NCBI GenBank assembly: GCA_012103255.1
Contig: WLXD01000001.1
Coordinates: 62,001 to 126,000, forward strand
DNA from: Acidobacteriota bacterium
GTDB lineage: Bacteria > Acidobacteriota > UBA890 > WLXD01
Reading direction: 5' to 3'
Length of the DNA: 64,000 nucleotides
In this document: piece by piece, positions 5,948 through 58,335 of the stretch
Layout of the letters: every line of letters begins with the position of its first letter
How positions within the stretch are numbered: the stretch's first letter is position 1
Translations under genes and position numbers: made by a program
Notes under the pieces: model-generated
The model's database searches: none
The model's input: the letters and a program-made list of their open reading frames with translations, nothing else
Told to the model about the DNA's origin: nothing

Positions 5948-5973
5948 GCGTATACGCGCAAGGCGACTATAAT
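5948..5973. promoter_or_regulatory. Divergent promoter with palindromic operator
   Basis: A perfect 10-bp palindrome GCGTATACGC (5948-5957) sits beside two overlapping -10 boxes: TATAGT on the minus strand (5966-5971, towards padR) and TATAAT on the plus strand (5968-5973, towards the 6030 gene). A repressor bound at the palindrome would cover the expected padR start point and the spacer of the plus-strand promoter. Assigning it to this PadR is inference. Confidence 0.5.
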
Positions 5974-6029
5974 CGACCTGGTGATATCGGCGGGCCTGCT
6001 GCTAGATTCCAGCCCCGGAGGAACCCACC

Positions 6030-6578
6030 ATGCCCGAACTTCCAGACTTCCCGCTGCCAGACGAAGACGACGAACTCGATCAGCCGTACCTGAGCGATGA
6101 GATCAAGCGGCTGCGACTGGTGACGGTGGAGGAGCTTGAGGCCGCAGTGGGCGGCGAGCCGCTTGAAGGATCTGAGTTCGAGCCCGAGCTCGATGGCCCC
6201 GGAGAGATCGGCGAACTACCGCCAACCGGCCTCGAAGGCGGCACAGCGCCGTCCGCGCCGCGCAGACTATCGGTGTTGTCGCGCGGAGAATGGAGTCGGC
6301 CGGGTAGCTCGGAACTGCCGGGCTGCGGTGCGCTCTGGATGCTCGACTTCGGCGCGCTGCTGGACCAGGAATGCAGCGACGAACGCTGGCCGCAGCTATA
6401 CCGCGCCGCGCTGCTGCGGGCGATCGCCGAAGCCAATCGGCGCTGCGCGTCAGATCTACAAGGTTGCGAGCGCGCCAGGGTTTGGCTGCTCCATGCGAAG
6501 TGGGGCTGTGACTTCGGTCCGACCCGCAACGAAATGGGCTTCACGATCGTGCTCGCTGTCGCCTGCGTGGGGCGCTAG
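6030..6578 (+). CDS. Acidic hypothetical protein
   Basis: A 182-residue protein I do not recognise. The first 75 residues are very acidic and proline/glutamate-rich (PDEDDELDQPYLSDEI, then VEELEAAVGG), which suggests a disordered tail. The C-terminal half (~90-182) looks folded, with LWMLDFGALLDQE, an Arg-rich helix, and four cysteines (two in CASDLQGC). There is no signal peptide or membrane span. A strong GGAGG ribosome-binding site lies 7 bases before the ATG. It is divergent from the padR gene and shares its promoter region, so PadR may control it. It is convergent with the winged-helix/TolB gene; the two stops abut. Confidence 0.75.
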   Translation: MPELPDFPLPDEDDELDQPYLSDEIKRLRLVTVEELEAAVGGEPLEGSEFEPELDGPGEIGELPPTGLEGGTAPSAPRRLSVLSRGEWSRPGSSELPGCGALWMLDFGALLDQECSDERWPQLYRAALLRAIAEANRRCASDLQGCERARVWLLHAKWGCDFGPTRNEMGFTIVLAVACVGR

Positions 6579-8852: not shown

Positions 8853-8891
8853 CGATCCACTCGAGCGGGAAAGGGCCTTCAGGGTAACCGG

Positions 8892-9098: not shown

Positions 9099-9256
9099 GA
9101 GCTGTGCTCCGGGGAGTCACGATGGAGAGCTACAGATGTCTACGTGCATCGTGGCGCCCGGGGTTCAACGGATGAGCGCGAAGTCGCCTTCCCGTGATTT
9201 CCTCAAGCGTGGCGGGCCCCTGTGATTTCCCGTAGGTTGAAACTCGTGTAGTTTGC

Positions 9257-9283
9257 CATATGTGTGCTATAAGCAAACATATG
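9257..9283 (+). promoter_or_regulatory. PadR operator overlapping an extended -10 and the padR start codon
   Basis: Left arm CATATGTGTGC (9257-9267), spacer TATAA, right arm GCAAACATATG (9273-9283): an 11-5-11 inverted repeat with one mismatch. An extended -10 (TGCTATAAG, hexamer 9268-9273) lies at its centre. The ATG at 9281 is the end of the right arm, 8 bases after the -10, which predicts a leaderless mRNA and tight autorepression. Confidence 0.6.
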
Positions 9284-9616
9284 AAACGCCGCGACTACCT
9301 GACCGACTTCGAACAACTCGTGATGCTGGCTGTTCTGCAGCTGGGCGACGAGGCCTACGGTGCCCCGATTCGCGCCGCCCTGGAAGAACAGGCCGGCCGC
9401 GTGGTGTCGATCGCAACGATCTACGTCGCCCTGAGTCGACTCGAGGAGCAGGACCTCGTGCGCAGCTGGTTTGCCGAGCCGACAGCGGTGCGTGGTGGAC
9501 GGAGCAAGCGGCTGTACGCCGTGACCGAACTCGGCGTGGAAGCTCTCGAACGGGCGCGCGACCACTTCGACCGCATGTGGGATGGCGCACGCGAAGCCAT
9601 GCGGCGGGAGTCCTGA
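9281..9616 (+). CDS. PadR-family transcriptional regulator
   Basis: A 111-residue PadR repressor. It has the N-terminal pattern LTDFEQLVMLAVLQLGDEAYG, then the core EEQAGRVVSIATIYVALSRLEEQDLV and a wing with RSKRLYAVTELG. It belongs with the PadRs at 26121 and 58369: all three carry an FE-(Q/K)-(L/M)-hydrophobic start and a GR-V-(S/A) core, and all three precede ADOPs with the same prefix type. I start it at the ATG at 9281 rather than the in-frame ATG at 9260: the earlier one lies inside the operator and would add seven unrelated residues. The TGA overlaps the ATG of the ADOP gene (TGATG), so translation is coupled. Confidence 0.9.
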   Translation: MKRRDYLTDFEQLVMLAVLQLGDEAYGAPIRAALEEQAGRVVSIATIYVALSRLEEQDLVRSWFAEPTAVRGGRSKRLYAVTELGVEALERARDHFDRMWDGAREAMRRES

Positions 9617-13379: not shown

Positions 13380-13380
13380 C

Positions 13381-15188: not shown

Positions 15189-15204
15189 GTGCGCTCCGGG
15201 CCGG

Positions 15205-17384: not shown

Positions 17385-17392
17385 ACGCCTGG

Positions 17393-18347: not shown

Positions 18348-20789
18348 CTACCGAGACTCCAGAACGCGCGCCGGATCAATTCGGGCCGCGCGGCGGGCTG
18401 GAAGCCAGCACGCAGACAGCGCGACTGCGGCAACCGCGATGGACGTCCCCGCGTAGGTCGTCAAGTGAAAAGGAGGCACCTCATATAGCAGGCCTCCGAG
18501 TGCTCTACTCGCTGCAGCTGCCGCACAAAGCCCGCCGACAATGCCCACGATGGCGCCCAACATGCCCTGGCGCACAACCAGAGCGATGATGTCGCGCGGC
18601 GCGGCGCCAAGCGCCTTCCTGACGCTCAACTCCCGGAGTCGCGTCTGGACTGCACCCGAGACGACACCGTAGAGGCCGGCAACGGCGAGAATCCAAGCAA
18701 CGGCGGCGAAGACCGAGAAGATGGTGAGCGCGAAGCGCCGCTGCGCCTCCGATCGCATGAGCAGATCTTCGAGCAGCTGGGTGCGAACGATGGGCTGATC
18801 CGGATTCACCGACCACACCGCCTGGTGAATGTCCGCCACTCGAATACTCGGCCCGTCTCCCGGGGTGGCGACAAGCCAGAGTGCATTGTCCGCGAAGTAC
18901 CACTGCTCAGGCGTGATGTAGATGGCGCCGGCCGGTGCGGCGTCGAGCGACGTCTGCTTCACGTCGCGCACAATTCCAACGACCTCGAAGGGCGGTAGAT
19001 CCGTGCGGCCAAAATGCAGAAGCTGGCCAAGAGGCGGCTGGTCGGGGAAAAGCCCAGTCGCAACGGCTTCGCTGATCACGGCTACGCGGCGGGCCTCGGC
19101 CGCGTCTTGCGGCTCCAGAGCCCGGCCGCGCAGCAACTCGATGCCCATGGTCGCGAGATATCCAGGCGTAACCACATAGCGATACGCGGCACCACCCTGG
19201 GCTTCGGAGCCTTCGGCCAGCCTCACTCCGTACATGTCCACATCGCCGCTAAGCGGCAACTGACTGGTCAGGGCAACCTCACCGACCCCCGGCACCGCGC
19301 GAGCCGCCGCGAGAGCTTCATCGAAGAACTGCCGCACCGCTTGCCTTTCGCGGAATTCGGGGCCGGCCACCTGCAACTGCATCACCGTGGTGCCAGCCGT
19401 CTCGAATCCCGGAGCAACAGCGAACAGACGCTGCAGACTACTCGTCAGGAGCGCAGCGCCGATCAGAAGGACCAACGACAGACCGACTTCCGCGGCGACC
19501 AACGCCTGACGCAGCGTCGCCCGTCCATCCGTGGTGCGCGTCGAACCACCTTCCATTCCAGCGCGCAGGCCCCCAGCCCGCAAGGACAGAACTGGCACGA
19601 GTCCAACCAGGAGTCCGGTACCCGTCGTGACGGCGGCGGCGAAGAGAAGGACGACGCCATCCATGCCGAACTGGACATCGCCAGGAAGGGCAGATCGGGC
19701 CGCGATCTGGAGGCCCTCAACACCGAGCGCAGCGAGGCCAACACCCAGAACACCTCCGACGACCGAGAGCGTCAGGCTCTCAGTGAGGAACTGTCGTGCC
19801 ACCCGGCCGCGACTCGCTCCGAGCGCAGTGCGGAGAGCCACCTCGCCGCGACGCTTCGCGTTGCGACCGAGCACGAGATTCGCAACGTTGGCGCACGCGA
19901 TCAGCAGCAGCAGAGCCACAGCGCCGAGGAGTGTGAGCAGCAAGGGCCTCGTGGCGGCTGTGGTCGCCTCTTTCAGAGGCCGCACGTCCAGTCCGTTTTC
20001 CATGTTTGCCCACGTCGGGCGAGCGAACTCCGACACCGGCGCTTGACCGATCTCCAGGAGTTCGTGCTGCGCGGCCTCCGCTTCGACCCCCGGCTTCAGG
20101 CGGGCCAGCGTTCCGAGGTGACGCCCCCACTCCCGGCTATCGTGACCTGGGAGCGTGGCGTCGTACTGCAGCAGCGTCCAGGCGGCACTCGGCGGCAAGG
20201 GGGTGTTCGTGAAGTCGGGCGGCATCACCCCCACCACGCGATACGGCCAACCATCCAGACGGACGTTGTGGCCAACGATGTCAGGATCCGCCTCGAACTG
20301 CTGCCGCCACAGTGCGTCGCTGAGCACAACAACACCGTCGCCACCCGGCCGGTCGTCCTCAGCCGCGAACCCCGCGCCGAGCCGGGGCGCCACGCCGAGA
20401 GCGGCGAAGTAGTCCGCGCTCACCCGCAACCCGTCCAGTCGCGACGGAGTGCCGGCGCCGCTCAGGGTTGGTTGCCATGGGCGGTAAGCCGCCACCTTGT
20501 CGACGCTCTGCGCCCGCGTCGCCACCTCGCGATAGGTTCCGAAGGCCATCGAGGAAATACCGGAGTCCGGTTCGCTCACGATCACCAGCTGATCCGCGTC
20601 CGGGTACGGAAGCGGCTCGAAAAGAACCGGGTAGGCCACGCTGAATATCGCTGTGGCCGCACCCACACCGAGCGCCAGGGCTCCCACAGCCACGGTGGCG
20701 AACAAGGAGTCCTTGCGAAGGCTGCGGAGGGCGAAGCGCGCATCGGAGAAACCGTCTTCGATCCATCGGGTAGGTCGACCGTCGCGCAC
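18348..20789 (-). CDS. ADOP-family ABC transporter permease (body; prefix out of frame)
   Basis: The transporter body is intact over 813 residues from a GTG at 20787-20789. It begins PTRWIEDGFSDARFALRSLRK, the usual segment just before TM1. TM1 (~30-60) contains GALALGVGAATAIFSVAYPV. The first periplasmic domain and FtsX core (with ANVANLVLGRNAKRRGEVALR) are followed by TM5 (~430) and the second unit, ending PARRAARIDPARVLESR. The gene's prefix domain lies directly upstream in another frame, so a single extra base near 20790-20802 separates the two. Skipping it restores an 871-residue protein. Without repair, expression would need the internal GTG, which has no clear ribosome-binding site. 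No ATPase is encoded nearby. Confidence 0.85.
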   Translation of the reverse strand: MRDGRPTRWIEDGFSDARFALRSLRKDSLFATVAVGALALGVGAATAIFSVAYPVLFEPLPYPDADQLVIVSEPDSGISSMAFGTYREVATRAQSVDKVAAYRPWQPTLSGAGTPSRLDGLRVSADYFAALGVAPRLGAGFAAEDDRPGGDGVVVLSDALWRQQFEADPDIVGHNVRLDGWPYRVVGVMPPDFTNTPLPPSAAWTLLQYDATLPGHDSREWGRHLGTLARLKPGVEAEAAQHELLEIGQAPVSEFARPTWANMENGLDVRPLKEATTAATRPLLLTLLGAVALLLLIACANVANLVLGRNAKRRGEVALRTALGASRGRVARQFLTESLTLSVVGGVLGVGLAALGVEGLQIAARSALPGDVQFGMDGVVLLFAAAVTTGTGLLVGLVPVLSLRAGGLRAGMEGGSTRTTDGRATLRQALVAAEVGLSLVLLIGAALLTSSLQRLFAVAPGFETAGTTVMQLQVAGPEFRERQAVRQFFDEALAAARAVPGVGEVALTSQLPLSGDVDMYGVRLAEGSEAQGGAAYRYVVTPGYLATMGIELLRGRALEPQDAAEARRVAVISEAVATGLFPDQPPLGQLLHFGRTDLPPFEVVGIVRDVKQTSLDAAPAGAIYITPEQWYFADNALWLVATPGDGPSIRVADIHQAVWSVNPDQPIVRTQLLEDLLMRSEAQRRFALTIFSVFAAVAWILAVAGLYGVVSGAVQTRLRELSVRKALGAAPRDIIALVVRQGMLGAIVGIVGGLCAAAAASRALGGLLYEVPPFHLTTYAGTSIAVAAVALSACWLPARRAARIDPARVLESR

Positions 20790-20980: not shown

Positions 20981-21319
20981 TCAGGCGTTGTTGAGCACGA
21001 GTGAAACGGTGCTGGCGAGTTCTTCCCAACCGGAGATCTCGTCCTTTAGCTTCCGCCGCCCCTTCGCGTTGATGGCGTAGACCTTGGCCTCGCGCCCCCG
21101 GATGGTCGTCCACGTGGCATCCACCAGCGCACGCTGCTCGATCCGGTGGAGCGCCGGGTAGAGCGACCCCTGCGGAATCTCGAGGCGTCCGGCCGAAACC
21201 TCGCCGAGCCGCTTGCCGATTGCGTAGCCGTGTAGCGGGGTTTCCGCGAGCACGCGCAGGATCAGCATGTCGAGCGTGCCCTGCAGAAGTTCCGTGCGAT
21301 TTCCCTGGCTTTTCTTCAT
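20981..21319 (-). CDS. PadR-family transcriptional regulator (classical acidobacterial type)
   Basis: A 112-residue PadR. It matches the classical acidobacterial PadR pattern: LLQGTLDMLILRVLAETPLHGYAIGKRL, then IPQGSLYPALHRIEQRALV and the wing REAKVYAINAKGRRKL. The C-terminal segment (EISGWEELASTVSLVL) is the dimerisation helix. The start codon at 21317-21319 lies inside one arm of a 44-bp palindrome and 8 bases after a predicted -10, so the mRNA is probably leaderless and self-repressed. The ADOP prefix follows 16 bases after the stop. This is the only cassette with a gap rather than an overlap or near-overlap. Confidence 0.92.
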   Translation of the reverse strand: MKKSQGNRTELLQGTLDMLILRVLAETPLHGYAIGKRLGEVSAGRLEIPQGSLYPALHRIEQRALVDATWTTIRGREAKVYAINAKGRRKLKDEISGWEELASTVSLVLNNA

Positions 21320-21361
21320 GCCTAGACACTCTACCTATCAATAGGAAGCATGTCTAGGCAT
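21318..21361 (-). promoter_or_regulatory. Nested 44-bp palindromic operator and promoter of padR
   Basis: Perfect 11-bp outer arms ATGCCTAGACA (21318-21328) and TGTCTAGGCAT (21351-21361) share their centre with a perfect inner palindrome CCTAT-CA-ATAGG (21334-21345). On the minus strand TAGACA (21351-21356) and TAGAGT (21328-21333) are separated by exactly 17 bases, a good -35/-10 pair. The start codon follows 8 bases after the -10. PadR binding would occlude the whole promoter. Confidence 0.7.
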
Positions 21362-22997: not shown

Positions 22998-25934
22998 CTA
23001 TTGAACGGGACCAAGTGTCAGGTCGAGCCAACCGCGAATCTCGGCCACAACCTCTCTGGGGAACGAGGCGGCGACCACGTGCCCGGCGTTGTAGGTAACA
23101 TGCCGCTTCTGGTCGACGGGCGTGCCGAGATGTTCAAAGAACGGAATCTGCGATGTCTCGACCGGGAAGATGTAGTCGTGCGTGCCGTTCAGCATCAACA
23201 CGGGAACGTTCACACGAGGCGCGAACACGGATTCGTCGACCTCCGGGAGAACGGGAACGAGCAGCGCACCGGCATCGCTGAGCACCGCCGTTGCGAAACG
23301 TGGCTCGATCGCGAGCACGATCGGACCGTGTTCGGCGCCCCAACTCAGGCCGTAGTAGGCAATGCGCTCCATGTCGATGTCGTCGCGACTCGCCAGGTAG
23401 TCCACGGAACGAAGTGCATCCTGGATCCAATACCGTTTGCGGTCGCTGTACTCGCGAGTCGCCGATCGAGCGTTGTGCGAAACCCCTAGATTGCGCTCGT
23501 ACGTCTCGCGATAGATGGGATAGAGCACCGCGCGTCCACTCTCGATCAGTGCGGCCAGCAGCGCCTCACCCTGGAGTCGGTCACTGGGGATCGGCCGCAT
23601 CACGTCCACGCCGGGGTAGTAGACGATCGTCTGCAATTGTCCCCCGGCGTTCAGCGGCAGGTAGAGATGCGCCTGCATCGTTTCCCCATACCCGGTCGAA
23701 AACTCGACCTTCTCGCGGGTCCAGTGCTGCCCTCGCTCGACAGCCACGGTGGTCGCGTCCAGAGGCGTCGGATCGTAGTCGTAGTGTCGCTTGAGAACGT
23801 CAAAGACCTCGTCGCTGACGTCCGTACCCCAGGAGTAGCGCACCGGCTCCACGTCGACCGGCTGAAGCAACGGTTCGAGTTCCGAAGCTGTCGCGTCGAG
23901 GTAGTACGCGAGGCGCATCCCGTTCGTCGGAGAGCGATCGAGCGGAGGTAGCAGGTCGCCCTGACTCGAGGCGTAGTAGGGATCGTTGTACGCGCCGCCG
24001 AGGATGTAGCGCGAATCGCCGACCGCGTTCCACGCCCATTCGCGCACGTTGCCCGCCATTTCCCGCAGACCGTGAGTGCCGAACGGTGTGCTTCCTGCGG
24101 CGACCGTCCCCGCCTGGCCGAAGTTGCTGGTCGACGTCAGCTGTACGGCGAGGGCACGGTCGCGAGCGCTGGTCCAGTGGTAGATCGTCGGCAAAGCCGC
24201 GCCCGAAAACTCAGCGAAAGCGGCGGCTTCGTACCAGCTGATGCCCGCGACGGGGTGACCAGCCAGACCTTCGGGGTAGGTACCGGCTTCCCAGGTCGAT
24301 GGTCCCGGCCGGCCGCTTCGATCGCGGAACCGTGTCGTGGCCGCCTCGAAAGACAACTCGCGGCCATTGTCGGTCATCGCGTGTATCCAGTACGCGGTAT
24401 CTGAGTAGCCGCCGGCCTCGACGAACCTCTGATACTCGGCATTCGTCACCTCGGTCGTGCCGAGCAGGTAGGCCGGGTAGCGATCGACTTCCGGGGTCGG
24501 GTCAAATCCGTCTAGATTGAATACGGATGCCCGTAGCTTCCGCGGAGTGATGTAGGTCAACCCTGGAGGCACGGCGCCCAAAGGAATGAGCGGAACCTCC
24601 GCCTCGACGTGAGGCTCCGAATCGGGGTCGATCCACACGATTTCCTCGAGATCCCGGTAGCCCTCGAGTTCCAGGCGCAGGCGATAGGCGCCCAGCGGCA
24701 GGCGCTCGACGTGCTGCGGTGACTGTCCGCGGTGCGTCCACTCGATCGACGCGTCGGTATAGGCGCCAGCCCACTGTGGAGTGCGCACCTCGCTCAGTTG
24801 AATGTCGGCTCCCCGGGGGACCGTCGTGAGCGTCGCCGAACGCGAAATCTGCGACCAGCGCGAAGCCATCTCCTCCGGCGCGAGGCTCTCGCTCGCCTCG
24901 CTCGCCACGGCCACGGCTGCGGAGTACTGACCTGCGGCGGTGAGGCGATCGATCTCCGGCAGTAGCACCTCGCGCGCTCGGGTAGTCGCGGATTGATTGC
25001 GATAGGCCCACAGCGCTGCGCTCGAGACGGCGACAAGAAGCACCGCTGCGACGAGGGCCAAGGCGACACCACGTGGCGTGCGGCGCGCCACAATCGCCTC
25101 CCGCAGCGACTCGCCAATCGCCGCCATGGAACTGAGACGAGAGTCACGATCCTTGATCAGGCAACCCTCGATCGTGTTCCGCAGCGGCCGTGGTAGATCG
25201 GGAGGCAACTGGCTCCAGTCGGGTTCGGCCTCCAGGATCGCCGCCATCGTGTCCGCAGTCGACTCTCGGACGAACGGCCCTTTGCCGACGGCGAGCTCGA
25301 AGAGGAGACATCCGAACGACCAGATATCCGTGCGCTCATCGAGTGTCGCGCCGCGCACCTGCTCGGGACTCATGAACGGGATCGTGCCCAGCAGCGCGCC
25401 CGCGGCGGTGAGTTGCTGGTCCGTGGGCATGTCGCCCGTGGTGGCGTCCGGGTCAGACGATGCCACCGGTCTCGCGATCCCGAAGTCGAGGACTTTCACG
25501 CGACCATGATGGTCACGCATGACATTCGACGGCTTCAGGTCGCGATGAATGATCTGCTGTTCGTGAGCCGCGGCGAGGGCGCCCGCTACTTCCGTGGCGA
25601 TCGTCATGATCTCTGAAGGCGGCAACGGACTCTCCGCGAGCGAAGTGGACAGAGGCTCACCGTCCACCAGCTCCAGCGCGAGAAAGACCGCCCCGTCGAC
25701 GTCGTGCACTGAGTAGATCGCGGCGATCCCCGGATGAGTGAAGCCGGCCAATACGGTGGCCTCGCGCCGGAAGCGCTGCAACGCCTCGGCGTTGTCGATG
25801 AACTCGGCCGGCAGCAACTTCAACGCCACGTCGCGCTGGAGTCTCAGGTCGCGGGCGCGGTAGACCGATCCCATCCCGCCGCTACCGAGGTGCGCGAGGA
25901 TCTCGAAGTGTTCGAGGCGTGTTCCGACTTCCAT
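22998..25934 (-). CDS. Ser/Thr kinase - PEGA - FGE-like - alpha/beta hydrolase fusion protein
   Basis: A 978-residue protein joining four modules. The kinase (1-~275) has GSGGMG, Lys39, HRD with Asp132 and DFG with Asp150, all intact. One TM helix follows (~290-313). A PEGA-like beta domain (~370-445) has [14 protein letters not shown] and [15 protein letters not shown]. An FGE/sulfatase-modifying-like domain (~470-700) has [31 protein letters not shown] and EMAGNVREW, but lacks the C-terminal cysteine pair needed for formylglycine synthesis, so it is probably a binding domain. The C-terminal hydrolase (~735-978) has an intact triad Ser864 (GLSWG), Asp920 and His952. The kinase should face the cytoplasm and the rest the periplasm. 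I start at the ATG at 25934; an upstream in-frame GTG adds four residues. Confidence 0.92.
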
Positions 25935-26041
25935 GGTCCCGTGCACGTCCGCGGGTGACTTGTGCGGCGCTCATGTCTCCTGTCGGAACCGTAGCAGACA
26001 GGCCTGGCCACCTGTCGAAGCGTCTCGAAGACCTGAAGTCC

Positions 26042-26095
26042 TTGACGCGCTGCGCTTTCAAACTACAGTGTAGTTTCATCAAACTACACTGTAGT
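26042..26095 (+). promoter_or_regulatory. padR promoter with two tandem palindromic operators
   Basis: Operator 1 is AAACTACA-G-TGTAGTTT (26060-26076), perfect. Operator 2 is ACTACA-C-TGTAGT (26083-26095), perfect. A TTGACG -35 (26042-26047) and TACAGT -10 (26064-26069) are 16 bases apart, so the first operator covers the -10. It lies 26-79 bases before the padR ATG at 26121. Confidence 0.65.
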
Positions 26096-36701: not shown

Positions 36702-39398
36702 GTGGAAGGCAAAGTCCTCGGTAGCTACGAGATCCTCGAACGTCTGGGCGCGGGCGGCCAGGGGCACGTCTATCGCGCACGCGATACAACGCTCGACCGC
36801 GAGATCGCGGTAAAGGTCCTTCCTCCGGCGTTCATCGCCGATCCGTCGCGGCTCAAGCAGTTCCAGCAGGAAGCCAAGATGCTGGCGGCGGCCAGCCACC
36901 CGAATATCGCAGCGGTCTATGCGATCGAAGAGTTCGAGGAGATCCGCTTCTTCACGCAGGAACTCGTTCCCGGGATGACGCTTGCGGACAAGATCAAGAG
37001 CGGCCCCCTCGACCTGCTCGATACGCTCGAGATCGCGCGTCAGGTAGCGGCAGCTCTGGAGACCGCGCACGAGAAACGACTGATCCACCGCGATCTCAAA
37101 CCGGCCAACGTGATGGTGCAGCCGGACGGGCGCGTGAAGGTTCTCGACTTCGGCCTCGCTCTCCCGGTGGATCGTGAGGACGGTGACGAGGAATACGGCC
37201 TGAGCGACTCCGCCGCCACGATTAGCCGCACCGCCGACAGCATCATCGTGGGCACGGCTCCCTACATGAGTCCGGATCAGGCACGCGGCAAGCTTGTGGA
37301 CCGGCGCACCGACGTCTGGTCCTTCGGCTGCATCCTGTTCGAGTGCCTCAGCGGCGAACGTCCCTTCGAGGGCGACACGCTTCTCGACACGCTATCGGCG
37401 ATTGTGCGATCGGAGCCCAACTGGGACGTGCTCCCCGCCACCGTCCCGCGCCGGCTGCGCCATCTGATTCAACGCTGTCTGCGTAAGCGCGTCAGCGACC
37501 GCATCCAGCACGTCGGTGACGCCCGCATCGTTCTCGAAGAACTGATCGCGGACCCGACAGCAGGCCAGGATATCTTCGGAGAACCCGGCGGCGAGAGCGC
37601 GGCCCCCGCGGCGATCCCACCAAGCGGCAGCGCGCGTAACTTCGCCGCAGCAGCTCTGATCGGCGGCCTGGCGCTGGGCGCAGCGGCGATGTGGGCTCTG
37701 CAACCGGCGGCGCCCGCCCAGAAAACGCTCAGGATGTCGAAGTCGCTCGAACCTGCACGGCTCGACTTCGAGAACTCTTCCGCAATCGCCATCTCGCCGG
37801 ACGGCGAACGAATCGCCTATTCAGCACGACACGAGGGAGAACTGACGCTCTTCGTGAGCGCCCTGGGCGCCTTCGACGCGGTGCCCATCGACGGAACCGC
37901 TGGCGCGATGAACCCGTTCTTCTCGCCCGATGGTTCGTGGGTCGGGTTCTTCTCGGAAAACTTCCAGCTCGCCAAGGTTCCCGTAGATGGTGGCGTGGTC
38001 GTCCCGATCTGCGACGTTCCCGTCGGCAACATCGGAGCCACGTGGCTGGAAGACGACTCGATCGTCTTCGCGACCTTCTCCACAGGCGCCGGACTGCAGC
38101 GCGTGGCGGCCAGCGGTGGCGAACCGTCGTTCGTCACCGAACTGAATCTCGAAGCTGGCGAAACCAATCACGGCTGGCCGCATGCCGTTGCCGGACGAAA
38201 CGCCGTGCTGTTTGCCGTCAGTCGCGTGGACGGAAACCACATCTCGGTGCTCGATCTGGCTACCGGCGAGCACCGCCTGGTGATGGAAGGCGGCGACCAG
38301 GCGCGCTACACGAACTCAGGGCACCTCCTCGTGAGCCAGCAGGGTGCGCTCCTCGCGATGCCGTTCGATGTCGCCGCGTTCAAGGTCACGGGCACGCCGG
38401 CTGTGGTTGTGGAGGATATGTTCGGCACAGATCGCAACGCCACGGGCTTCGACGCAAGCCCGAACGGAACGCTGGTGTATGCGCCGGGGGCGAAGCAGGA
38501 CCTCGACCGGTTCGTCTGGGTTGACCGCGGCGGAGCCGTTGAGCCCCTGCCGCTGGAGCCTGGCAGCTACGGGCACCCGCGGATCGCGCCGAATGGCACG
38601 CAACTCGTGTTCGATTCACCACATGACGGTGGCCAGGACATCTGGGTGTACGACACGACCCGCAACATCGCGACTCGCCTCACCACAGCCGGTGACAATG
38701 TGTTGCCTGTGTGGTCCCCGGACGGACGGCAGATCTTGTTCGCATCCAGCGGACGGGGCCAGACCGGCCTGTATTGGCACCGCAGCGACGGCTCGGGAGA
38801 GTCGCACCTGATGGCGGAGGCCGAAGGCTCACTATGGCCGTTGTCCTGGCAGGAGCAGCAGATCGCCTACTACGCGCTCAATGCCGACACGGGGCGGGAC
38901 ATCTGGATCTACGAGGCAGGCAGCGACGGTGACGGCGGGGGCGGGGCTGCTGCCAGGCCGTTCCAGGCCACCAGCTTCAACGAACGCTCCCCGATGATCT
39001 CACCGGATGGCAGATGGGTGGCCTACGTGTCGAACGACTCCGGTCGGGACGAGGTCTACGTCAAGGGACTGGGCGGCGAGGAGACGAAGTACACGATCTC
39101 GAACGGCGGCGGGGTTGAACCGGTCTGGGGGCCCGATGGTAGCGAGCTTTTCTATCGCTCCGGACGCTCGCTGATGGTCGTGCCCGTCATCGCTGGACGC
39201 ACCTTGCAGATCGGATCGCCACTCTCGCTCTTCGAAGGAGACTTCAAGCAGGAACCCGTGGCCGGCAACCAGTACTACGACATCAGCCCGGACGGTCAGC
39301 GCTTCCTGATGATCCTCGAGGACGAGACCCAGCGCGGCCCCGACAAGCTGCACGTGATCGTCGGCCTCGGCGCGGAACTGACCGACCCCAGTTCCTAG
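36702..39398 (+). CDS. Transmembrane Ser/Thr kinase with TolB/PD40 beta-propeller
   Basis: An 898-residue kinase starting at GTG with AGAGGGG upstream. The kinase domain (~8-285) has GAGGQG, Lys38 (IAVK), HRD with Asp131 and DFG with Asp149, all intact. An acidic insert (DREDGDEEYG) lies in the activation-loop region before GTAPYMSPDQARG. TM ~313-335 (NFAAAALIGGLALGAAAMWAL). The extracytoplasmic propeller includes AISPDGERIAYSARHEGEL, PVWSPDGRQILFASSGRG and MISPDGRWVAYVSNDSG, and ends DISPDGQRFLMI. Its closest sister in the window is the kinase at 33425. Confidence 0.93.
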   Translation: MEGKVLGSYEILERLGAGGQGHVYRARDTTLDREIAVKVLPPAFIADPSRLKQFQQEAKMLAAASHPNIAAVYAIEEFEEIRFFTQELVPGMTLADKIKSGPLDLLDTLEIARQVAAALETAHEKRLIHRDLKPANVMVQPDGRVKVLDFGLALPVDREDGDEEYGLSDSAATISRTADSIIVGTAPYMSPDQARGKLVDRRTDVWSFGCILFECLSGERPFEGDTLLDTLSAIVRSEPNWDVLPATVPRRLRHLIQRCLRKRVSDRIQHVGDARIVLEELIADPTAGQDIFGEPGGESAAPAAIPPSGSARNFAAAALIGGLALGAAAMWALQPAAPAQKTLRMSKSLEPARLDFENSSAIAISPDGERIAYSARHEGELTLFVSALGAFDAVPIDGTAGAMNPFFSPDGSWVGFFSENFQLAKVPVDGGVVVPICDVPVGNIGATWLEDDSIVFATFSTGAGLQRVAASGGEPSFVTELNLEAGETNHGWPHAVAGRNAVLFAVSRVDGNHISVLDLATGEHRLVMEGGDQARYTNSGHLLVSQQGALLAMPFDVAAFKVTGTPAVVVEDMFGTDRNATGFDASPNGTLVYAPGAKQDLDRFVWVDRGGAVEPLPLEPGSYGHPRIAPNGTQLVFDSPHDGGQDIWVYDTTRNIATRLTTAGDNVLPVWSPDGRQILFASSGRGQTGLYWHRSDGSGESHLMAEAEGSLWPLSWQEQQIAYYALNADTGRDIWIYEAGSDGDGGGGAAARPFQATSFNERSPMISPDGRWVAYVSNDSGRDEVYVKGLGGEETKYTISNGGGVEPVWGPDGSELFYRSGRSLMVVPVIAGRTLQIGSPLSLFEGDFKQEPVAGNQYYDISPDGQRFLMILEDETQRGPDKLHVIVGLGAELTDPSS

Positions 39399-41771: not shown

Positions 41772-41819
41772 ACTGTGCCAGACCCCTGTGGTCTCGTGCA
41801 ACTTCGCCGCCCGGACTTG

Positions 41820-41876
41820 ATATTCACATTTCGTGAATATAGGTTGTGGAAGTCAATATTCACAGAATGTGACTAT
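41820..41876 (+). promoter_or_regulatory. Two tandem padR operators
   Basis: Operator 1 is ATATTCAC-ATTTC-GTGAATAT (41820-41840), perfect 8-bp arms. Operator 2 is ATATTCAC-AGAAT-GTGACTAT (41856-41876), 7 of 8 matching. Centres are 36 bp apart. They lie 25-81 bases before the padR ATG at 41901 and within the divergent blaI/padR spacer, the most AT-rich stretch nearby. Confidence 0.65.
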
Positions 41877-41900
41877 CTGGAAACCACGAGCCTCACCGCG

Positions 41901-42239
41901 ATGAAATCCACGGAAGAACATCTGCCTCTGAAGCCGCGCATCTTCGAGATACTGCTCGCTCTACTGCGGGGCGACGACCACGGCTACGCCATCATTCAGG
42001 AGCTAAACCGGAGTTCGCGCACCCGGATTCTGCCCGGCTCGTTCTACCGCGACCTGGAGTCGATTGAAGCGGCCGAGATGATCGAGGAAGTGGACTCGCC
42101 CCCGGGGACGGCGGGTCGCAAACGCTGCTTCCGAATCACGTCATTCGGTCGCACGGTGGTGCGAGCCGAAGCGCGTCGAATGGAACAGCTCGCTCAGGTC
42201 GGAACCGAGCTACTCCAACAGTCGCGCGGCGAAAGTTGA
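41901..42239 (+). CDS. PadR-family transcriptional regulator
   Basis: A 112-residue PadR with LPLKPRIFEILLALLRGDDHGYAIIQELNR, then ILPGSFYRDLESIEAAEMIEE and the wing GRKRCFRITSFG. It is closest to the PadR at 5543, sharing FEILLAL and HGYAI, and both genes drive ADOPs with the same prefix type. The frame is open further upstream, but the ATG at 41901 removes a non-homologous extension that would run through the operators. The TGA overlaps the TTG start of the ADOP gene. Confidence 0.9.
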   Translation: MKSTEEHLPLKPRIFEILLALLRGDDHGYAIIQELNRSSRTRILPGSFYRDLESIEAAEMIEEVDSPPGTAGRKRCFRITSFGRTVVRAEARRMEQLAQVGTELLQQSRGES

Positions 42240-44923
42240 AGCTCCTGCGCTGGCTCTACTGCTGCGCCTTGCGCGCGTACCCGGCGAGCTTTCGGCGGCG
42301 GTTCGCCGACGATCTCGTGGCCGCGTTCGACGACGGCATGTCGAATCCCGAATGGGCGGCACACGAAGAATCGCGCTGGCTGTTCGCCTTGCGGTCGATT
42401 CTCGACGCGCTCAACCACGGCCTGAGGCGTCGGCTACGCCGAGCCCCGGCCACCACTTCTCCGAGCCCCATCCTCTCTTTGCCAGTTCTCCGCCGCGCCA
42501 ATCCCCTGGACACGACGATGCGAGACATTCTCTGGGGGCTACGCGCCCTGCAACAAAGACCCTCAATGGCGCTTGCCGTCATCCTCACGCTGACCATCGG
42601 GATCGGCGCCACGACGGCGATGTTCTCGCTCATGGACGCGGTGCTCTTTCGCGAACTCCCCTACCCAGCGTCGGACCGGCTGGTCGCGGTCCAGCAACGC
42701 GACACCCGGACCGAGCAGGTCGCGGCGCCGATATCGCCGGCGAACTACCTGGACCTGCGCGAGGCATCGGAGACCTTCGAAGACGTCGCTGGAACGCTCT
42801 TTCGACCTTTCGGGCCGACCGTTCGCATCGACGATGAACCCGCCTTCTCGGCGCAGGTCTTCACGGTTACGTACAACCTTTTCGAGGTCCTGCGCACGGA
42901 GCCAGCGCTGGGACGCGGCTTCAGCAGCGCTGAAGCGGATCCGGAGGGACCCAAGACCGCGATCCTCAGCCACGACTTCTGGATGCGGACGTTTGGTGGC
43001 GCGCCGACGACTCTTGGCCGGACGCTGAGCGTGGGCGGCATCCAGCGCGAAATCATCGGAGTGATGCCCGAGGGCTTCTATGTCGAGGTCCCCGTCGACA
43101 TGTGGATCCCGATGGACTACGACGCGCGGGTGCATTTCGCACTGGCCGCAGAAATCCGTCACATCGGGATGCTCAACCTGATCGGGCGACTCGCCGACAG
43201 GCGCACTCCGGCGGAAGCGTCGGCTGAGATGACCGGGCTGCTCGCCTCGCTGGTGCGGGAGTACCCGGAGGACAACGAGGGGATCGCCGCGGTGGTGCGC
43301 ACCGCCAAGGAACGGCAGGTGAGCGCCCACACCGAAACCCTCTGGTACATGGGAGCCGCAGTCGCGGGCATGCTCGTGATCGCTGCGCTCAACATGGCCG
43401 TCCTGCTCGTGGCCGCTGCGGCGTCCCGCCAGTCCGAGATCTCCACGCGACTAGCGCTGGGATCGAGTCGACGCCGGCTCGTGCAACAGGGGCTCGCCGA
43501 GAGCCTGATTCTCAGCCTTGCGGGCGCCGTCGGTGGTGGGTTTCTGGCCGTCGCGCTGATCCGCAGTCTGCTCGGAGCACTGCCCGCGAACCTGCCCCGC
43601 CAGAGCGAGATCGTCGTGGACGCCCGTGCATGGGGATTCGGGCTGGGTGTGGCCGTGGTGGCCGGCGTCGTGTTCGGCCTGATGCCGTTGTGGCTCCACA
43701 TGCGCACGGAACCGATCGAGGCTCTACGGAGTCGCTCCGGCAAGAACACCGGCTCCGCCAGGCTTCGGCGCGCCTTGATCGTGGCCGAAGTCGCCCTCGC
43801 CTTCGTTCTGCTGATCGGTTCCGGGGTCCTGCTTCGCAGCCTCGACAAGGCGTTGCGGGTCGACCCGGGCTTCACGATCGCCGGTGTGATGACTACGGGC
43901 ACCGCGGTGCCTGCAGCCACGGCCGAGTCCGCCGAAGGGCGCATAGCCCACTTCACGAATCTCCGCGATGAGCTTCTTGCGATTCCGGGCGTTGTCGAGG
44001 TCGGCTACTCGTCGCGGACACCGCTCCGAGGCAACAGCGTCGAAACCGAGATCACGATCGAGGGGCGCCCTGCCACGCCGAATTCGCCGATGATGGTCGA
44101 GTTTCGCCGAGCGAGCGCGGAGTTCTTCCCCGCACTGCAGATCCCGCTGGTGAACGGCCGCCTGTTCGATCCACAGGATCGACCGGACACGATGCCGGTG
44201 GCGATCATCAACGCGTCGGCCGAGCGACAGCACTTCGCCGGAGACGCAGTGGGACGCCAATTCAGCTGGAACAACTCGGGAACCCTGTTCACCGTGGTTG
44301 GTGTTGTGGGCGACATCCGTCACTTCGGACTCGACTCCCCCGCAACACCGGAGATGTACATCTCCACCACACAATTCCCGAACGACTCGTCGGCGATCTT
44401 CGTGCGCACCTCGGGGGATGCATCCGCGCTTGCAACGCCCATTCGGCAGCGCGTCCAACAAGCCAACCCCGCCGACCCGGTGCCGACGATGCAGACCATG
44501 GACGGGCTCGTTGCCGACTCGCTCACCCCACGTCGCTTCCCCGCCATTCTCGTGTCGGGGTTCGGACTCTTCGCACTCTTGTTGTCGGCGATGGGTCTCT
44601 ACGGAGTGCTGGTCTATCTCGTGGAGGAGCGCTCGCATGAGATTGGCGTCCGCATGGCGCTCGGGGCGGGACCGAGCACGATGGCGCGCAGCGTGGTCGC
44701 CGACGGCCTCCGCACCACCGCCGTCGGTCTGGTGATCGGCGTCCCAATCGCCTTGCTCGCGACGCGCTCGTTGGGCGCGCTGCTCTTCGACGTGAGTCCC
44801 ACCGACCCGCTCACCTACATCGCCATCGCCGCGCTCCTGCTCGGTGTTGCCGCCACGGCAAGTCTGGTAGCGGGCCGTCGCGCGACACGCGTGGATCCCG
44901 CGGCGGTTCTAACCCGGAGCTGA
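42236..44923 (+). CDS. ADOP-family ABC transporter permease (prefix with FRRRFADDL)
   Basis: An intact 895-residue duplicated permease starting at a TTG inside the padR stop region (TTGA). The prefix (~1-70) has LRAYPASFRRRFADDLVAAFDDG, the same type as the frameshifted ADOP at 2861. TM1 is at ~110-140 (AVILTLTIGIGATTAMFSLM). Periplasmic domain 1 and FtsX core 1 (~370-500) follow, then TM5 (~515-540), domain 2, and the final core (~765-895) with GLYGVLVYLVEERSHEIGVRMALGAG. It ends GRRATRVDPAAVL. It is convergent with the VWFA gene at a 14-bp gap. Confidence 0.92.
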   Translation: MKLLRWLYCCALRAYPASFRRRFADDLVAAFDDGMSNPEWAAHEESRWLFALRSILDALNHGLRRRLRRAPATTSPSPILSLPVLRRANPLDTTMRDILWGLRALQQRPSMALAVILTLTIGIGATTAMFSLMDAVLFRELPYPASDRLVAVQQRDTRTEQVAAPISPANYLDLREASETFEDVAGTLFRPFGPTVRIDDEPAFSAQVFTVTYNLFEVLRTEPALGRGFSSAEADPEGPKTAILSHDFWMRTFGGAPTTLGRTLSVGGIQREIIGVMPEGFYVEVPVDMWIPMDYDARVHFALAAEIRHIGMLNLIGRLADRRTPAEASAEMTGLLASLVREYPEDNEGIAAVVRTAKERQVSAHTETLWYMGAAVAGMLVIAALNMAVLLVAAAASRQSEISTRLALGSSRRRLVQQGLAESLILSLAGAVGGGFLAVALIRSLLGALPANLPRQSEIVVDARAWGFGLGVAVVAGVVFGLMPLWLHMRTEPIEALRSRSGKNTGSARLRRALIVAEVALAFVLLIGSGVLLRSLDKALRVDPGFTIAGVMTTGTAVPAATAESAEGRIAHFTNLRDELLAIPGVVEVGYSSRTPLRGNSVETEITIEGRPATPNSPMMVEFRRASAEFFPALQIPLVNGRLFDPQDRPDTMPVAIINASAERQHFAGDAVGRQFSWNNSGTLFTVVGVVGDIRHFGLDSPATPEMYISTTQFPNDSSAIFVRTSGDASALATPIRQRVQQANPADPVPTMQTMDGLVADSLTPRRFPAILVSGFGLFALLLSAMGLYGVLVYLVEERSHEIGVRMALGAGPSTMARSVVADGLRTTAVGLVIGVPIALLATRSLGALLFDVSPTDPLTYIAIAALLLGVAATASLVAGRRATRVDPAAVLTRS

Positions 44924-44937
44924 TGCGGAAGCTTCGA

Positions 44938-50598: not shown

Positions 50599-50630
50599 CC
50601 TGATGAGAACTCAGAGAACCGGGGAGTGCG

Positions 50631-53080: not shown

Positions 53081-53088
53081 TCGGGGGC

Positions 53089-53143
53089 TTGACAGATTCA
53101 CCCCTATGTAGTGAACTACGGACTACCCTGTGTAGTTGACTAC
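53089..53143 (+). promoter_or_regulatory. padR promoter region with two tandem operators
   Basis: Perfect palindromes GTAGT-GA-ACTAC (53108-53119) and GTAGT-TG-ACTAC (53132-53143) have centres 24 bp apart. A TTGACA -35 box (53089-53094) lies upstream; the -10 is not clear. The padR GTG at 53158 follows a GGAGG. The half-site resembles ACTACA of the 26060 operators but with a different arm spacing. Confidence 0.6.
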
Positions 53144-53157
53144 CAACGGAGGCCACC

Positions 53158-53617: not shown

Positions 53618-56110
53618 ATGCAATCAGGGCGGTCGAACCTGGTCACCGTGCGCCGCTCCCTCGGGTGTGTGACCGACGCCGTCTGGCTACGCACCCACGA
53701 ATGGAGTCCCGACATGCTGCTACAAGACATTCGTTTCGCGGTTCGCACCCACCTGAAGCGACCCGGCTTCGCCGCGGTGGCGATCCTCACTCTCGCTCTT
53801 GGAATTGGCGCCAACACTGCGCTGTTCAGCGTCGTGAATGGGTTGCTATTGGAGCCGCTGCCCTACGAAGAGCCCGAGCGACTGGTGCGCTTGTACGGCA
53901 CGAACTCGACCCGCGGGCTGACGCACTCGAATCTGAACCCGAACGACATGCTCGACATCGGGGCACAGGCCGAGTCGGTTCTGGGCGCGTCGTACTACTC
54001 CGGGTTCTCCGCAACGATGCAAACGGACACGGAGCCGACCCGTCTGATCGGCGGGTCGGTGCACTCGACCTTCTTCCAGGTGCTCGGGGTTGATCCTCAT
54101 CAGGGACGCTTCTTCTCCGCCGAGGAGAACGTCGATGGCAACCACCGCGTGCTCGTTCTCGGCTACGACACCTGGCAGGTGCTCTTCGGCGCCGACCCGC
54201 AGATCGTCGGACGATCCGTCGACCTGGGGGACATCTACACGATCATCGGAATCGCGCCTCCCGGCTTCGTCGACCCCTTCGGCGGCCGGCAGATGTGGAC
54301 CCCGTGGGCGATCGATTCGGAAAACCGTGGCGGGCACTTCATGCGTGCCGTCGGCCGACTCGCCCCGGGCGTCAGTCTCGAGCAGGCGCAGCAAGACATC
54401 GACGGCGCCTATGTGGCGATCGGCGAGGAGTACGGCAAGCAACATCGAGGCATCCGCGCCGAGGGTCTACAAACCGCGATGGTGGCGGACTCGCGACCAC
54501 TCGTGCTGCTGCTGTTCGGAGCCGTCGGCTTCCTCCTGCTCATCGTGTGCGCCAACATCGCCAGCCTGATGCTCGCCAGAGCCGTGAACCGTCGCCAGGA
54601 AATCGCAGTGCGCATGGCGCTCGGGGCCGGCCGCGGCCGGCTCGTGCGACAGATGGTTACCGAGAGCTGGATGCTGGCGGCGGCGGGCGGAATTGCCGGA
54701 GTAGCCCTCGCGAGCTGGCTCATCAAGATGGTGGGCGGCGCCGCCGCGACGGCGATTCCGGGCGGACTATTCGACATTTCGTTGGATGCCCGCGTGCTCG
54801 CGTTCTCACTCGTGGTGACGCTAGGCGCGGGCGTCCTGTTCGGCCTGGCCCCCGCCCTCCAGGGCACCCGCGCTGAACTCGCCGACAGTCTGCGCGAGCG
54901 CGGCGCGGATCGCTCGAGTTCCGGCCGCCGTCGCCTACGCTCAGGCCTGGTCGTGGCCGAGGTTGCCATCTCGCTCATGCTGCTCATCGGAGCGGGCTTG
55001 ATGCTCCGCAGTATGGGCAACCTGATGGCTGTCGATCCAGGGTTTGAGCCGACCGGCGTGCTGAGCTTCCGCATCGTGGTGCCGGAAAGCGACTACCCGG
55101 AATACCCACAGATCCCGGCGTTCTACGAGACCTTCATGGCCAACCTGGAAGCACTGCCGGGCGTCGAGTCGGTTGGGGCCGTGAACCGCTTGCCGTTCAG
55201 TGGGAGCTACTCCTGCGATTGGTTCATGCTCGAAGGTTGGCCGATGCCGGAACGAGGTCAAGGTGAATGCGCCGAGGAACGCGTGATCGCGGGCGACTAC
55301 TTCCAGACCATGGGAATCCAGATCGTCGGCGGCCGCGGTCTCGAGTCCACCGACACCGCGGACAACCAGCGCGTGATTCTGGTGAGCCAGACGATGGCCG
55401 ACCGCTTCATCGCAGGCGAAGATCCGCTTGGTCGCGGCTTCACCTGGGGCCCGGTCGAAGAGGACACGAACTTCCGCCGCGTGGTCGGAGTCGTTGCAGA
55501 CGTGAAACACCTGGACCTCACAAGCGACGCTATGACCGAGGTGTACATGCCCCACGAGCAGTACCCCTACTACCGGCGCATGACGTTGGTCGTGCGCGCC
55601 CAGGATCCGCTGGCCCTGCTACCGGCGGCCAAAGCGGCTCTCAGCGATCAAGACGCGAACATCGCAATGTACGAGGTCAGCACGCTCGACGGCCTGGTCG
55701 CCGACAGCGTCGCCCCGACCCGGACGAGCGCGCAGATCTTGGGCGCCTTCGCGGTGCTCGCCCTCGTGCTCGCCTGCGTGGGTCTGTACGGCGTGCTGGC
55801 CTACACCGTGTCGCAACGCACGCATGAGTTCGGCGTTCGCATGGCTCTGGGCGCCCAACGCGGCAGCGTGGTCAGCATGGTGCTGCGCCAGGCGATGACC
55901 CTGGTCGCGATCGGAGTCGTGCTGGGTCTCTTCGGCGCGTGGGCGCTATCCGGCTCGCTGGCGGGAGTGCTGTTTGGCGTGACGCCCGACGATCCGGCGA
56001 CCTATCTGCTGATCTCGGGCGTCCTCGTGGCGGTCGCCGCCATGGCCGCGTTCATGCCGGCCTCGCGCGCAACCCGCGTCGACCCGGTGCGTGCCCTGCG
56101 CGACGAGTAG
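53618..56110 (+). CDS. ADOP-family ABC transporter permease (body; prefix out of frame)
   Basis: An 830-residue transporter body whose first codons (MQSGRSNLVTVRRSLG) are the end of the prefix. TM1 (~50-75) reads [20 protein letters not shown]. The first periplasmic domain, first FtsX core (ANIASLMLARAVNRRQEIAVR), TM5 and second unit follow, ending ASRATRVDPVRALRDE. Removing one base rejoins it to the prefix at 53482 for an 875-residue protein, within the 867-907 range of the intact ADOPs. As it stands, the ATG at 53618 could start a prefix-less protein, but there is no ribosome-binding site. Confidence 0.87.
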   Translation: MQSGRSNLVTVRRSLGCVTDAVWLRTHEWSPDMLLQDIRFAVRTHLKRPGFAAVAILTLALGIGANTALFSVVNGLLLEPLPYEEPERLVRLYGTNSTRGLTHSNLNPNDMLDIGAQAESVLGASYYSGFSATMQTDTEPTRLIGGSVHSTFFQVLGVDPHQGRFFSAEENVDGNHRVLVLGYDTWQVLFGADPQIVGRSVDLGDIYTIIGIAPPGFVDPFGGRQMWTPWAIDSENRGGHFMRAVGRLAPGVSLEQAQQDIDGAYVAIGEEYGKQHRGIRAEGLQTAMVADSRPLVLLLFGAVGFLLLIVCANIASLMLARAVNRRQEIAVRMALGAGRGRLVRQMVTESWMLAAAGGIAGVALASWLIKMVGGAAATAIPGGLFDISLDARVLAFSLVVTLGAGVLFGLAPALQGTRAELADSLRERGADRSSSGRRRLRSGLVVAEVAISLMLLIGAGLMLRSMGNLMAVDPGFEPTGVLSFRIVVPESDYPEYPQIPAFYETFMANLEALPGVESVGAVNRLPFSGSYSCDWFMLEGWPMPERGQGECAEERVIAGDYFQTMGIQIVGGRGLESTDTADNQRVILVSQTMADRFIAGEDPLGRGFTWGPVEEDTNFRRVVGVVADVKHLDLTSDAMTEVYMPHEQYPYYRRMTLVVRAQDPLALLPAAKAALSDQDANIAMYEVSTLDGLVADSVAPTRTSAQILGAFAVLALVLACVGLYGVLAYTVSQRTHEFGVRMALGAQRGSVVSMVLRQAMTLVAIGVVLGLFGAWALSGSLAGVLFGVTPDDPATYLLISGVLVAVAAMAAFMPASRATRVDPVRALRDE

Positions 56111-56118
56111 TAGGCGAA

Positions 56119-56147
56119 TGGCGCCGGAGCGAATTGCCCCGGCGCCA
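56119..56147. terminator. Hairpin between convergent genes
   Basis: TGGCGCCGG (56119-56127) pairs perfectly with CCGGCGCCA (56139-56147) over an 11-base loop. It lies just after the ADOP stop (56110) and before the end of the opposing gene remnant (56167). There is no U tract, but the position fits a bidirectional terminator. Confidence 0.5.
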
Positions 56148-56166
56148 GATCCTCGTGAAGTGAGCG

Positions 56167-56358
56167 CTATTCGACGACCGCCGTCGTGCTCAGAGTCACA
56201 GATGTCGTGTGCTCGCTGGGCACGTTGACCTTGCCCTTCGCGGTCAACGTGCATTCGACGATGGCGTCGGCATCGAACTTGGTCAGATCGACGCCGCTCG
56301 TGACGATCGACGTATAGCCCTGGAGGTCGACGCTGCCTCGGTACACATCGTAGGAGTG
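56167..56358 (-). pseudogene. C-terminal remnant of an unidentified beta-rich protein
   Basis: About 63 residues to the TAG at 56167 read like a real protein tail: SYDVYRGSVDLQGYTSIV, VDLTKFDADAIVECTLT, HTTSVTLSTTAVVE, alternating hydrophobic strands. Upstream on the minus strand, beyond about 56360, the frame runs antisense to ADOP sequence. The 5' part of the gene is therefore missing, apparently removed at the same junction that truncates the ADOP. I do not recognise the parent family. Confidence 0.45.
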
Positions 56359-56384
56359 CTGGCCGATGCCGCCGCCGGCACGCC

Positions 56385-58224
56385 ACGATCCGCCGAACTG
56401 TGGGCGCCAATCAACCTCGACGGCGACTTCCAGGTGCCACGCGGCGCGCATTGGTGGCGCGTGATTGGCCGACTCAAGCCCGGCGTTGAAGTCGAACAGG
56501 CGGCAGAAGAGATCGCAGCCATCGCGGACCGGCTGCCTCTGGGAGCCGAGGGGTGGTCCGGAACCGCGGTGAGCATGCACATGGAACTCACCGAGCGGGC
56601 CGAGGCGACGCTCAAGACTCTCTTCGGTGCCGTCGCGCTGGTGCTGATCATCGCGTGCGCAAACGTGGCAAACCTGCTGCTCGCGCGGTCGTCGAGCCGC
56701 ACGCAGGAAATGTCGCTGCGCAGCGCCGTGGGCGCGTCGTCGGGCCGACTATTTCGACAGGTTCTCGTCGAGAGTGTCCTGTTGTCATCGGCCGGTGCTC
56801 TGGCCGGGATCGGCATCGCGGTGGCTGGTCTGCGCGTTGTGCGTGCCGCCGCGGGCACCGCACTTCCGCGCATGAACGAGGTAACGATCAGCGGAGAGGT
56901 GCTCGGGTTTACTGTCGCCGTGGCCGTCCTCACCGGGCTGGTATTCGGCATTCTGCCTGCCTATCGGAGCCGCAGAGTCAGCCCGGCGGAAGCCCTGAAG
57001 GAGAGCGCCGCTGGCGCCGGCCAGAGCCGCCAACGCACGCGCGTGCGGTCGGCGCTGGTCGTTGTCGAGGTGGCGCTGGCGGTCGCCGTCATCGCGGCAG
57101 CCGGCCTGCTCACCCGAAGCCTTGTCGGGTTGCAATCGGTTGACCCCGGCTTCGAGACCGAACAGCGTGTCGCCGCGCGCGTGTCGTTGCCGGAAGCCAG
57201 CTACCCGGATCGCCCAACGCGCATCGCGTTCTTCGACGAAGTCGTCGACACGATCCGGGCGCATCCAACCGTCCTGTCCGCTGACGTGGCGATGAGCGTT
57301 CCGCTCACCGACGACTTCAGCGTGAGCTTCGACATCGTCGGACAGGAGACACCCGAAGGCGAGCCGCAGCCCTCCGCTCAGATACGCGTCGTGGGCCCCG
57401 ACTATTTCCGCAGCGTATCGATCCCGGTGCTCCAGGGTCGGGTTTTCGATCGCACCGATCAGGCCGACGCCGAACACGTCGTGATCGTCAACGAGGCACT
57501 CGTGGAGAGGTTCTTCCCTGATCGGGATCCGCTCGGCGCGACTCTCGATATCGGGTTTGGTGTTGGCGAAGAGGATGATCCGAGCGTCCGCCGTATCGTC
57601 GGCGTGGTCGGCAACACGAAGACGTTCGAGTTGGACGAGGTCGACATGCCGATGTACTACCTGACACGACATCAGATGGCGCAGGATCGGCTATCACTGA
57701 TAGTTCACGCCGAAACGGATGCGGAACGCACGCTCGCGCTGGTTCGCGACACCATCCATGCGGCCGATCCCAACCTTCCGATCTACGATGCCGTGACGCT
57801 CGACGAGGTGGTGCGTGACACCACTGCCACCGAACGACTCCGACTCGGCCTGATTTCGAGCTTTGCGCTGCTGGCTGTTTTCCTTTCCGGAATCGGTATC
57901 TACGGGATGCAGTCGTTCGGAGTGGCGCAACGGCGGCGGGAGATCGGCCTCCGCTTGGCAATCGGGGCCGCGCCACGTGACGTGCTTGGAATGGTCCTCC
58001 GCGGCGGTGTCGGACTAGCCCTCCTCGGCGTGGCACTGGGCACCGTAGGGGCGCTGTTTCTGGGACGGTCTCTGGCCCACCAACTGTTCGGTATCTCGCC
58101 CTACGATCCGGTCACGCTAGCCGCTGTCAGCATGTCGGTGCTCGCGATCGCAGCGATGGCTTGCTGGGTGCCCGCGCGGCGCGCCACGCGCGTTGATCCG
58201 GCGAGCACTCTGCGCGCTGACTAG
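56385..58224 (+). pseudogene. ADOP remnant missing prefix, TM1 and most of the first periplasmic domain
   Basis: ADOP homology begins abruptly at ELWAPINLDGDFQ, normally about residue 260 of these proteins. The first FtsX core (ANVANLLLARSSSRTQEMSLR), TM5, the second periplasmic domain and the final core (GIYGMQSFGVAQRRREIGLRLAIGA) follow, ending ARRATRVDPASTLRAD. The reading frame is open upstream to 56209, but those residues are antisense to the neighbouring remnant, not ADOP. No padR or operator precedes it. It is most simply read as a deletion that fused the 3' ends of two convergent genes; an assembly join is the alternative. The retained part has no stops or shifts, so the event would be recent. 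Confidence 0.7.
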
Positions 58225-58313
58225 TGGGCCAGTAGGGCCGCCGCGAGGGATTTTCGAAACGATTGGGAACCTTCCCGCTTCGCCTGCCGTACTTGAGATT
58301 CAGACAGTCCACA

Positions 58314-58335
58314 TTGCAGACTATGCGGTCTGCAA
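58314..58335 (+). promoter_or_regulatory. padR operator
   Basis: TTGCAGAC (58314-58321), spacer TATGCG, GTCTGCAA (58328-58335): perfect 8-bp arms. It is 33 bases before the padR ATG at 58369. A TTGAGA (58293-58298) could be a -35, but no good -10 is seen. Confidence 0.6.

Follow-up and report, generated by a model that had tools for sequence, protein, structure and literature searches.

What are the palindromes that precede the padR genes of an acidobacterial gene cluster, and why do they differ from one padR to the next? The question is raised by a window of 64,000 nucleotides (bases 62001-126000 of contig C1), the whole stretch of DNA analysed here, which belongs to a 4.8 Mb genome of Acidobacteriota in nine contigs (G000), the close relatives of which are Acidobacteriota MAGs. 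The window contains seven padR genes (P1 to P7), each with an ADOP permease gene behind it. The initial annotation assigned to every padR a palindrome of its own and read the differences as operator diversification that insulates paralogous repressors. We consider it likely, with a probability of about 0.8, that the palindromes are autoregulatory operators of the adjacent PadRs.

The padR-ADOP cassettes

The padR complement of G000 amounts to about 170 genes in 4.8 Mb, and an ADOP-like gene follows at least 157 of them; in two genomes of the same genus, 93 matches each to the PadR winged-helix domain (PF03551) are listed. P1 to P6 lie above the curated cut-off of this domain (27 bits) among the matches listed, and P7 is matched by other PadR models and by homologous PadRs. 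The cassettes are like the acidobacterial pairs described by the NCBIfam families TIGR03433 (padR_acidobact) and TIGR03434 (ADOP) in that padR stands beside a duplicated permease and the pair is expanded as paralogues. They differ from them in that P3 alone clears the TIGR03433 cut-off (109.8 bits against 101.8, the remaining six padRs scoring 24.9-54.3 bits), and the families are silent on operators. The ADOP partners of P2 to P7 pass the TIGR03434 cut-off of 622.3 bits.

Palindromes in the window

All seven palindromes listed in the initial annotation are present exactly where it placed them. We scored the window dyads against 60 dinucleotide shuffles of the region -120..+30 around padR start codons picked by a simple rule, with a minimum attainable p of 0.016; the dyads of P2 to P7 are clear by this measure, and only that of P1 is marginal (z 2.2, p 0.049). 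P1 occupies 5543-5896 on the minus strand, its start being taken as the ATG at 5896. The operator here is probably a larger inverted repeat on the same strand (5935-5970), in which outer TCGC/GCGA arms surround GCGTATACGC (5948-5957).

The candidate operator of P2 (padR at 9281-9616, plus strand) is CATATGTGTGC-TATAA-GCAAACATATG at 9257-9283 on the plus strand (z 3.9), which extends into the chosen start codon. That of P3 (20981-21319, minus strand; ADOP partner at 18348-20789, minus strand, 772.6 bits with TIGR03434) is ATGCCTAGACA...TGTCTAGGCAT at 21318-21361 on the minus strand, with inner CCTAT/ATAGG; it overlaps the start codon and reaches z 4.0. The highest z of the seven belongs to P4 (26121-26477, plus strand; z 9.5), where two candidate operators, AAACTACAGTGTAGTTT (26060-26076) and AAACTACACTGTAGT (26081-26095), together span 26060-26095 on the plus strand.

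Two copies also precede P5 (41901-42239, plus strand, start taken as the ATG at 41901; ADOP partner at 42236-44923, plus strand, 779.4 bits): GATATTCACATTTCGTGAATAT (41819-41840) and ATATTCACAGAATGTGACTATC (41856-41877), within 41819-41877 on the plus strand, with z 3.0 and p 0.033. Upstream of P6 (53158-53481, plus strand; ADOP partner at 53618-56110, plus strand, 898.8 bits) the candidate operators at 53103-53143 on the plus strand comprise CCTATGTAG (53103-53111), GTAGTGAACTAC (53108-53119) and GTAGTTGACTAC (53132-53143), with z 5.1. For P7 (58369-58701, plus strand; ADOP partner at 58698-61421, plus strand, 736.1 bits) the candidate operator covers 58307-58342 on the plus strand (z 4.1), with GTCCACATTGC...GTAGAC as its outer part and TTGCAGAC-N6-GTCTGCAA as its inner part (58314-58335). 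The inner arms are those originally quoted and are present as such, but the conserved site is larger, having the outer form GTC(C/T)ACATTGC...GTAGAC, and in the G003 orthologue (72% identical) the inner arms are only partly kept.

Specificity for padR starts

Inverted repeats of at least 8 nt occur 505 times across the whole window, so that single short ones mean little and a test at the level of the class is needed. For 170 padR matches genome-wide, the best dyad in -120..+30 was therefore compared with 60 dinucleotide shuffles. A significant dyad (p<=0.05) is found at 57% of the padR upstreams of G000, with a mean z of 2.99, against 7% in a far upstream control (-350..-200), 5% inside the gene (+60..+210) and 7% at the starts of 67 further genes in the same loci; about 40% of the padRs have no significant dyad by the shuffle test. 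Genomes of further members of the genus, family and order show an excess as well (18-45%, with fewer shuffles). As a class the palindromes are thus genuine, and they are specific to the starts of padR genes. The sheer number of inverted repeats in the window is what would favour regarding them as products of chance or composition, yet their confinement to padR starts, their conservation in orthologues and their link to the PadR recognition helix make such an origin highly improbable.

Conservation in orthologues

Orthologues were defined as reciprocal best hits among G000, two genomes of the same genus (G001 and G002) and a further one from the family (G003), which yielded 173 orthologue pairs. 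Over 60 pairs of orthologues the dyad arms are 80-81% identical, as against 53-56% for the rest of the upstream region, and the arms are more conserved than their flanks in 56 of the 60. The G000 dyad alone, ranked against 100 other dyads, identifies the correct orthologous upstream in 59 of 70 cases.

The initial annotation had suggested looking for each palindrome upstream of orthologous padR genes, and for P2, P4, P5 and P7 it is found there. The P2 site is kept in G002, the first P5 copy in G001 and G002, and both P4 palindromes in all four genomes, where the flanks are hardly alignable. The outcome for the other three is partial. P1 has no orthologue in its own family, and a related TCGCC...GGCGTATA site occurs only in a 62%-identical homologue from another family; P3 and P6 are without a close orthologue among the compared genomes, their homologues being only 45-55% identical, some of them with related cores (CTAG/CTTAG types, CTACATAGG). 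A search for P4 orthologues across other genomes returned three matches corresponding to G001-G003 and a partial match in a Gemmatimonadetes MAG (L405, ~1440-1520). The PadR encoded there has a recognition helix nearly the same as that of P4, and upstream of its gene lies AACTGCACCGTAGTATT, which loosely resembles the P4 operator.

Promoter overlap

TTGACA/TATAAT-like promoters are present in 48 of 171 padR upstreams, where shuffles lead to an expectation of 5.6, and in 1 of 170 far upstream regions. A promoter of this kind is combined with a dyad at 28 padRs, and every one of these dyads is centred between -30 and +20 relative to the middle of the -10 element; in the window a -10-like TACAGT lies inside the first P4 palindrome. 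This position of the dyads over the promoter, together with the hexamer at P4, fits repression by covering the promoter.

Inverted repeats near a start codon could also be RNA hairpins of the padR leader that serve as attenuators or terminators. We regard this as very unlikely: the dyads sit on the promoter and not after it, and in orthologues the changes affecting both arms that keep pairing (15) barely outnumber those that abolish it (10), and a further 111 changes are one-sided. Terminator-like signals sought near P4 and P5 were not found.

A predicted mode of action

The conservation of the palindromes, their overlap with promoters, their specificity for padR starts and their association with the recognition helix bear out the initial proposal that they are candidate cassette-specific operators of the adjacent PadRs. 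They have the sequence features predicted for PadR autoregulatory operators, being dyads placed over the promoter of their own padR and conserved in orthologues, with P3 and P6 standing without a close orthologue. By extension from what is known of the PadR family (LftR, PMC6457526), a PadR dimer would bind the palindrome next to its own gene, the bound protein would cover the core promoter and thereby repress its own padR-ADOP operon, and a ligand would free PadR from the operator.

The Listeria regulator LftR, of the PadR-2 subfamily, binds the promoter of its own gene at a partial palindrome and is thought to control that gene (PMC6457526). The PadRs considered here are like it in being small (about 110 aa), in having a partly palindromic site upstream of their own gene and in carrying a signature Tyr in the recognition helix. 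The difference is one of scale and of approach: for LftR, binding was measured for one regulator and one site (PMC6457526), whereas here about 170 paralogues are associated with mostly different sites and binding is predicted. A search of the open-licence literature for PadR operators in Acidobacteria returned nothing.

Correlation with the recognition helix

The similarity of operators correlates weakly with that of recognition helices (Mantel r 0.13), and the correlation persists once similarity over the remainder of the protein is taken into account (partial Mantel 0.084, p 0.0005). When all alignment columns are scanned, the one most closely associated with operator similarity is the residue directly after the signature Tyr (z 3.9). 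Weak as they are, these correlations played no part in finding the dyads. The runner-up column (alignment column 41, z 2.5) corresponds to residue 12 of P1 and lies near the PadR N-terminus, that is, at the same end of the protein as Lys9 of LftR, a DNA-binding residue at its N-terminal end (PMC6457526).

Diversification and possible insulation of the operators

The seven palindromes were initially described as all different, with no sequence shared between cassettes. This nearly holds within the window, but genome-wide the cores of P4, P3, P6 and P7 are common to other padR upstreams. CTACA-N-TGTAG has six sites in the genome, five of which lie upstream of three related padRs of the P4 kind (two at P4, one at C5:30988 before the padR at C5:30893, and two at C6:153569/153589 before that at C6:153535), CTACA-N-TG is present both at P4 and at the P7 orthologue, and the CCTAGACA of P3 recurs at another PadR of the GSLYPALYRM type. 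The sixth CTACA-N-TGTAG site (C4:622699, L399 position 1501) is flanked by two divergent ORFs, neither of them a padR; chance alone would be expected to produce about one site of this sort.

Whole-upstream alignment scores were used to contrast orthologues with paralogues and were then replaced by dyad-only scores, because whole upstreams mix the operator with general conservation. At 50-65% protein identity, an operator is common to 22 of 48 orthologue pairs and to 9 of 246 same-genome paralogue pairs, a comparison qualified by the non-independence of the pairs and by the possibility that pairs of equal identity differ in age. A case in point is provided by P1 and its neighbour C1:60806, which are 54% identical and 7 kb apart and have unrelated palindromes, that of the neighbour (CTATGTGCT...AGCACATAG) being kept in G001 and G002. 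The diversification claimed for the operators therefore survives scrutiny: unrelated candidate operators occur in close paralogues, including a pair separated by only 7 kb, and are retained by the orthologues of these genes. As far as sequence can tell, the operators have diversified, though not to the point of strict privacy, and insulation of paralogous repressors is plausible. The operators would have diverged along with their regulators, orthologues keeping the same one and paralogues mostly having another, with subfamily cores still visible among PadRs that have similar recognition helices; they would serve as largely, though not strictly, private addresses, their orthogonality being a prediction.

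Diversification does not by itself establish insulation, since the neutral co-divergence of regulators and their sites would account for much of what is seen. Under it, a PadR and the few sites private to it would have drifted together without any selection against cross-binding, a course of events to which we give somewhat less than an even chance. It agrees with the smooth fall of operator similarity with helix and protein identity, and with the fact that 42 paralogue pairs reach a dyad similarity of at least 10 where arm-permuted dyads give 14.7; paralogue dyads are thus more alike than arm-permuted ones, not less, and active repulsion between operators is unsupported. What it accommodates less readily is the far more frequent sharing of operators between orthologues than between paralogues, non-independent as the pairs are. 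That same contrast, along with the unrelated operators of P1 and its 54%-identical neighbour, speaks for selection having driven the operators of duplicated PadRs apart because cross-repression is harmful; against this stand the similarity of paralogue operators in excess of random dyads and the occurrence of the P4 core at two other padRs. We hold such selection to be possible but not favoured, and overall the two accounts appear about equally likely.

Binding-site similarity limits the number of independent regulators according to the theory of global crosstalk (Friedlander et al., PMC4976215) and of duplication and specialisation (PMC5548793). These treatments are theoretical, and G000 would be a natural data set for them. 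The number of paralogous repressors that a single cell can hold distinct, and the joint change of site and protein once a gene has been duplicated, are questions addressed so far chiefly by theoretical work (PMC4976215, PMC5548793); with its 170 or so paralogous PadRs, a candidate operator near many of them and orthologues for calibration, G000 makes both measurable. Mirror-image sites that are kept between species and differ between copies constitute a natural set on which to test how duplicated regulators avoid interference, and the G000 set supplies ready-made repressor-operator parts and opens a way towards a recognition code for PadRs. We tentatively suggest, as a proposition that we would not expect to hold in full, that on the order of at least 100 PadR-operator pairs might be mutually near-orthogonal in one genome, with selection against crosstalk having concentrated operator changes in the time after duplication, and that the set might spell out a PadR recognition code, residing mainly in the residue that follows the signature Tyr, along with a limit on the number of coexisting paralogous repressors.

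Other features of the window

A truncated ADOP gene without a padR (56209-58224, plus strand) matches only positions 167-803 of TIGR03434, so that the first 166 profile positions are missing, and nevertheless passes the cut-off with 667.3 bits. It was said to have no palindrome of the operator kind, and indeed no AT-rich one is present, but the gap that separates the gene from the P6 ADOP contains a G+C-rich inverted repeat, GGCGCCGG...CCGGCGCC, at about 56120-56146. Given the gap of only 99 bp behind the P6 ADOP, the truncated gene may simply be part of the P6 operon. The ADOP partner of P1 (2861-5543, minus strand) is divided between two reading frames (4053-5543 and 2861-4375), which match TIGR03434 positions 3-373 and 406-803; the split represents a frameshift either in the gene or in the assembly. 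Among the cassettes there are also three genes for PknB-type Ser/Thr kinases, at 22998-25946 (minus strand), 29145-31841 (plus strand) and 36702-39398 (plus strand), two of which include TolB-like propeller domains.
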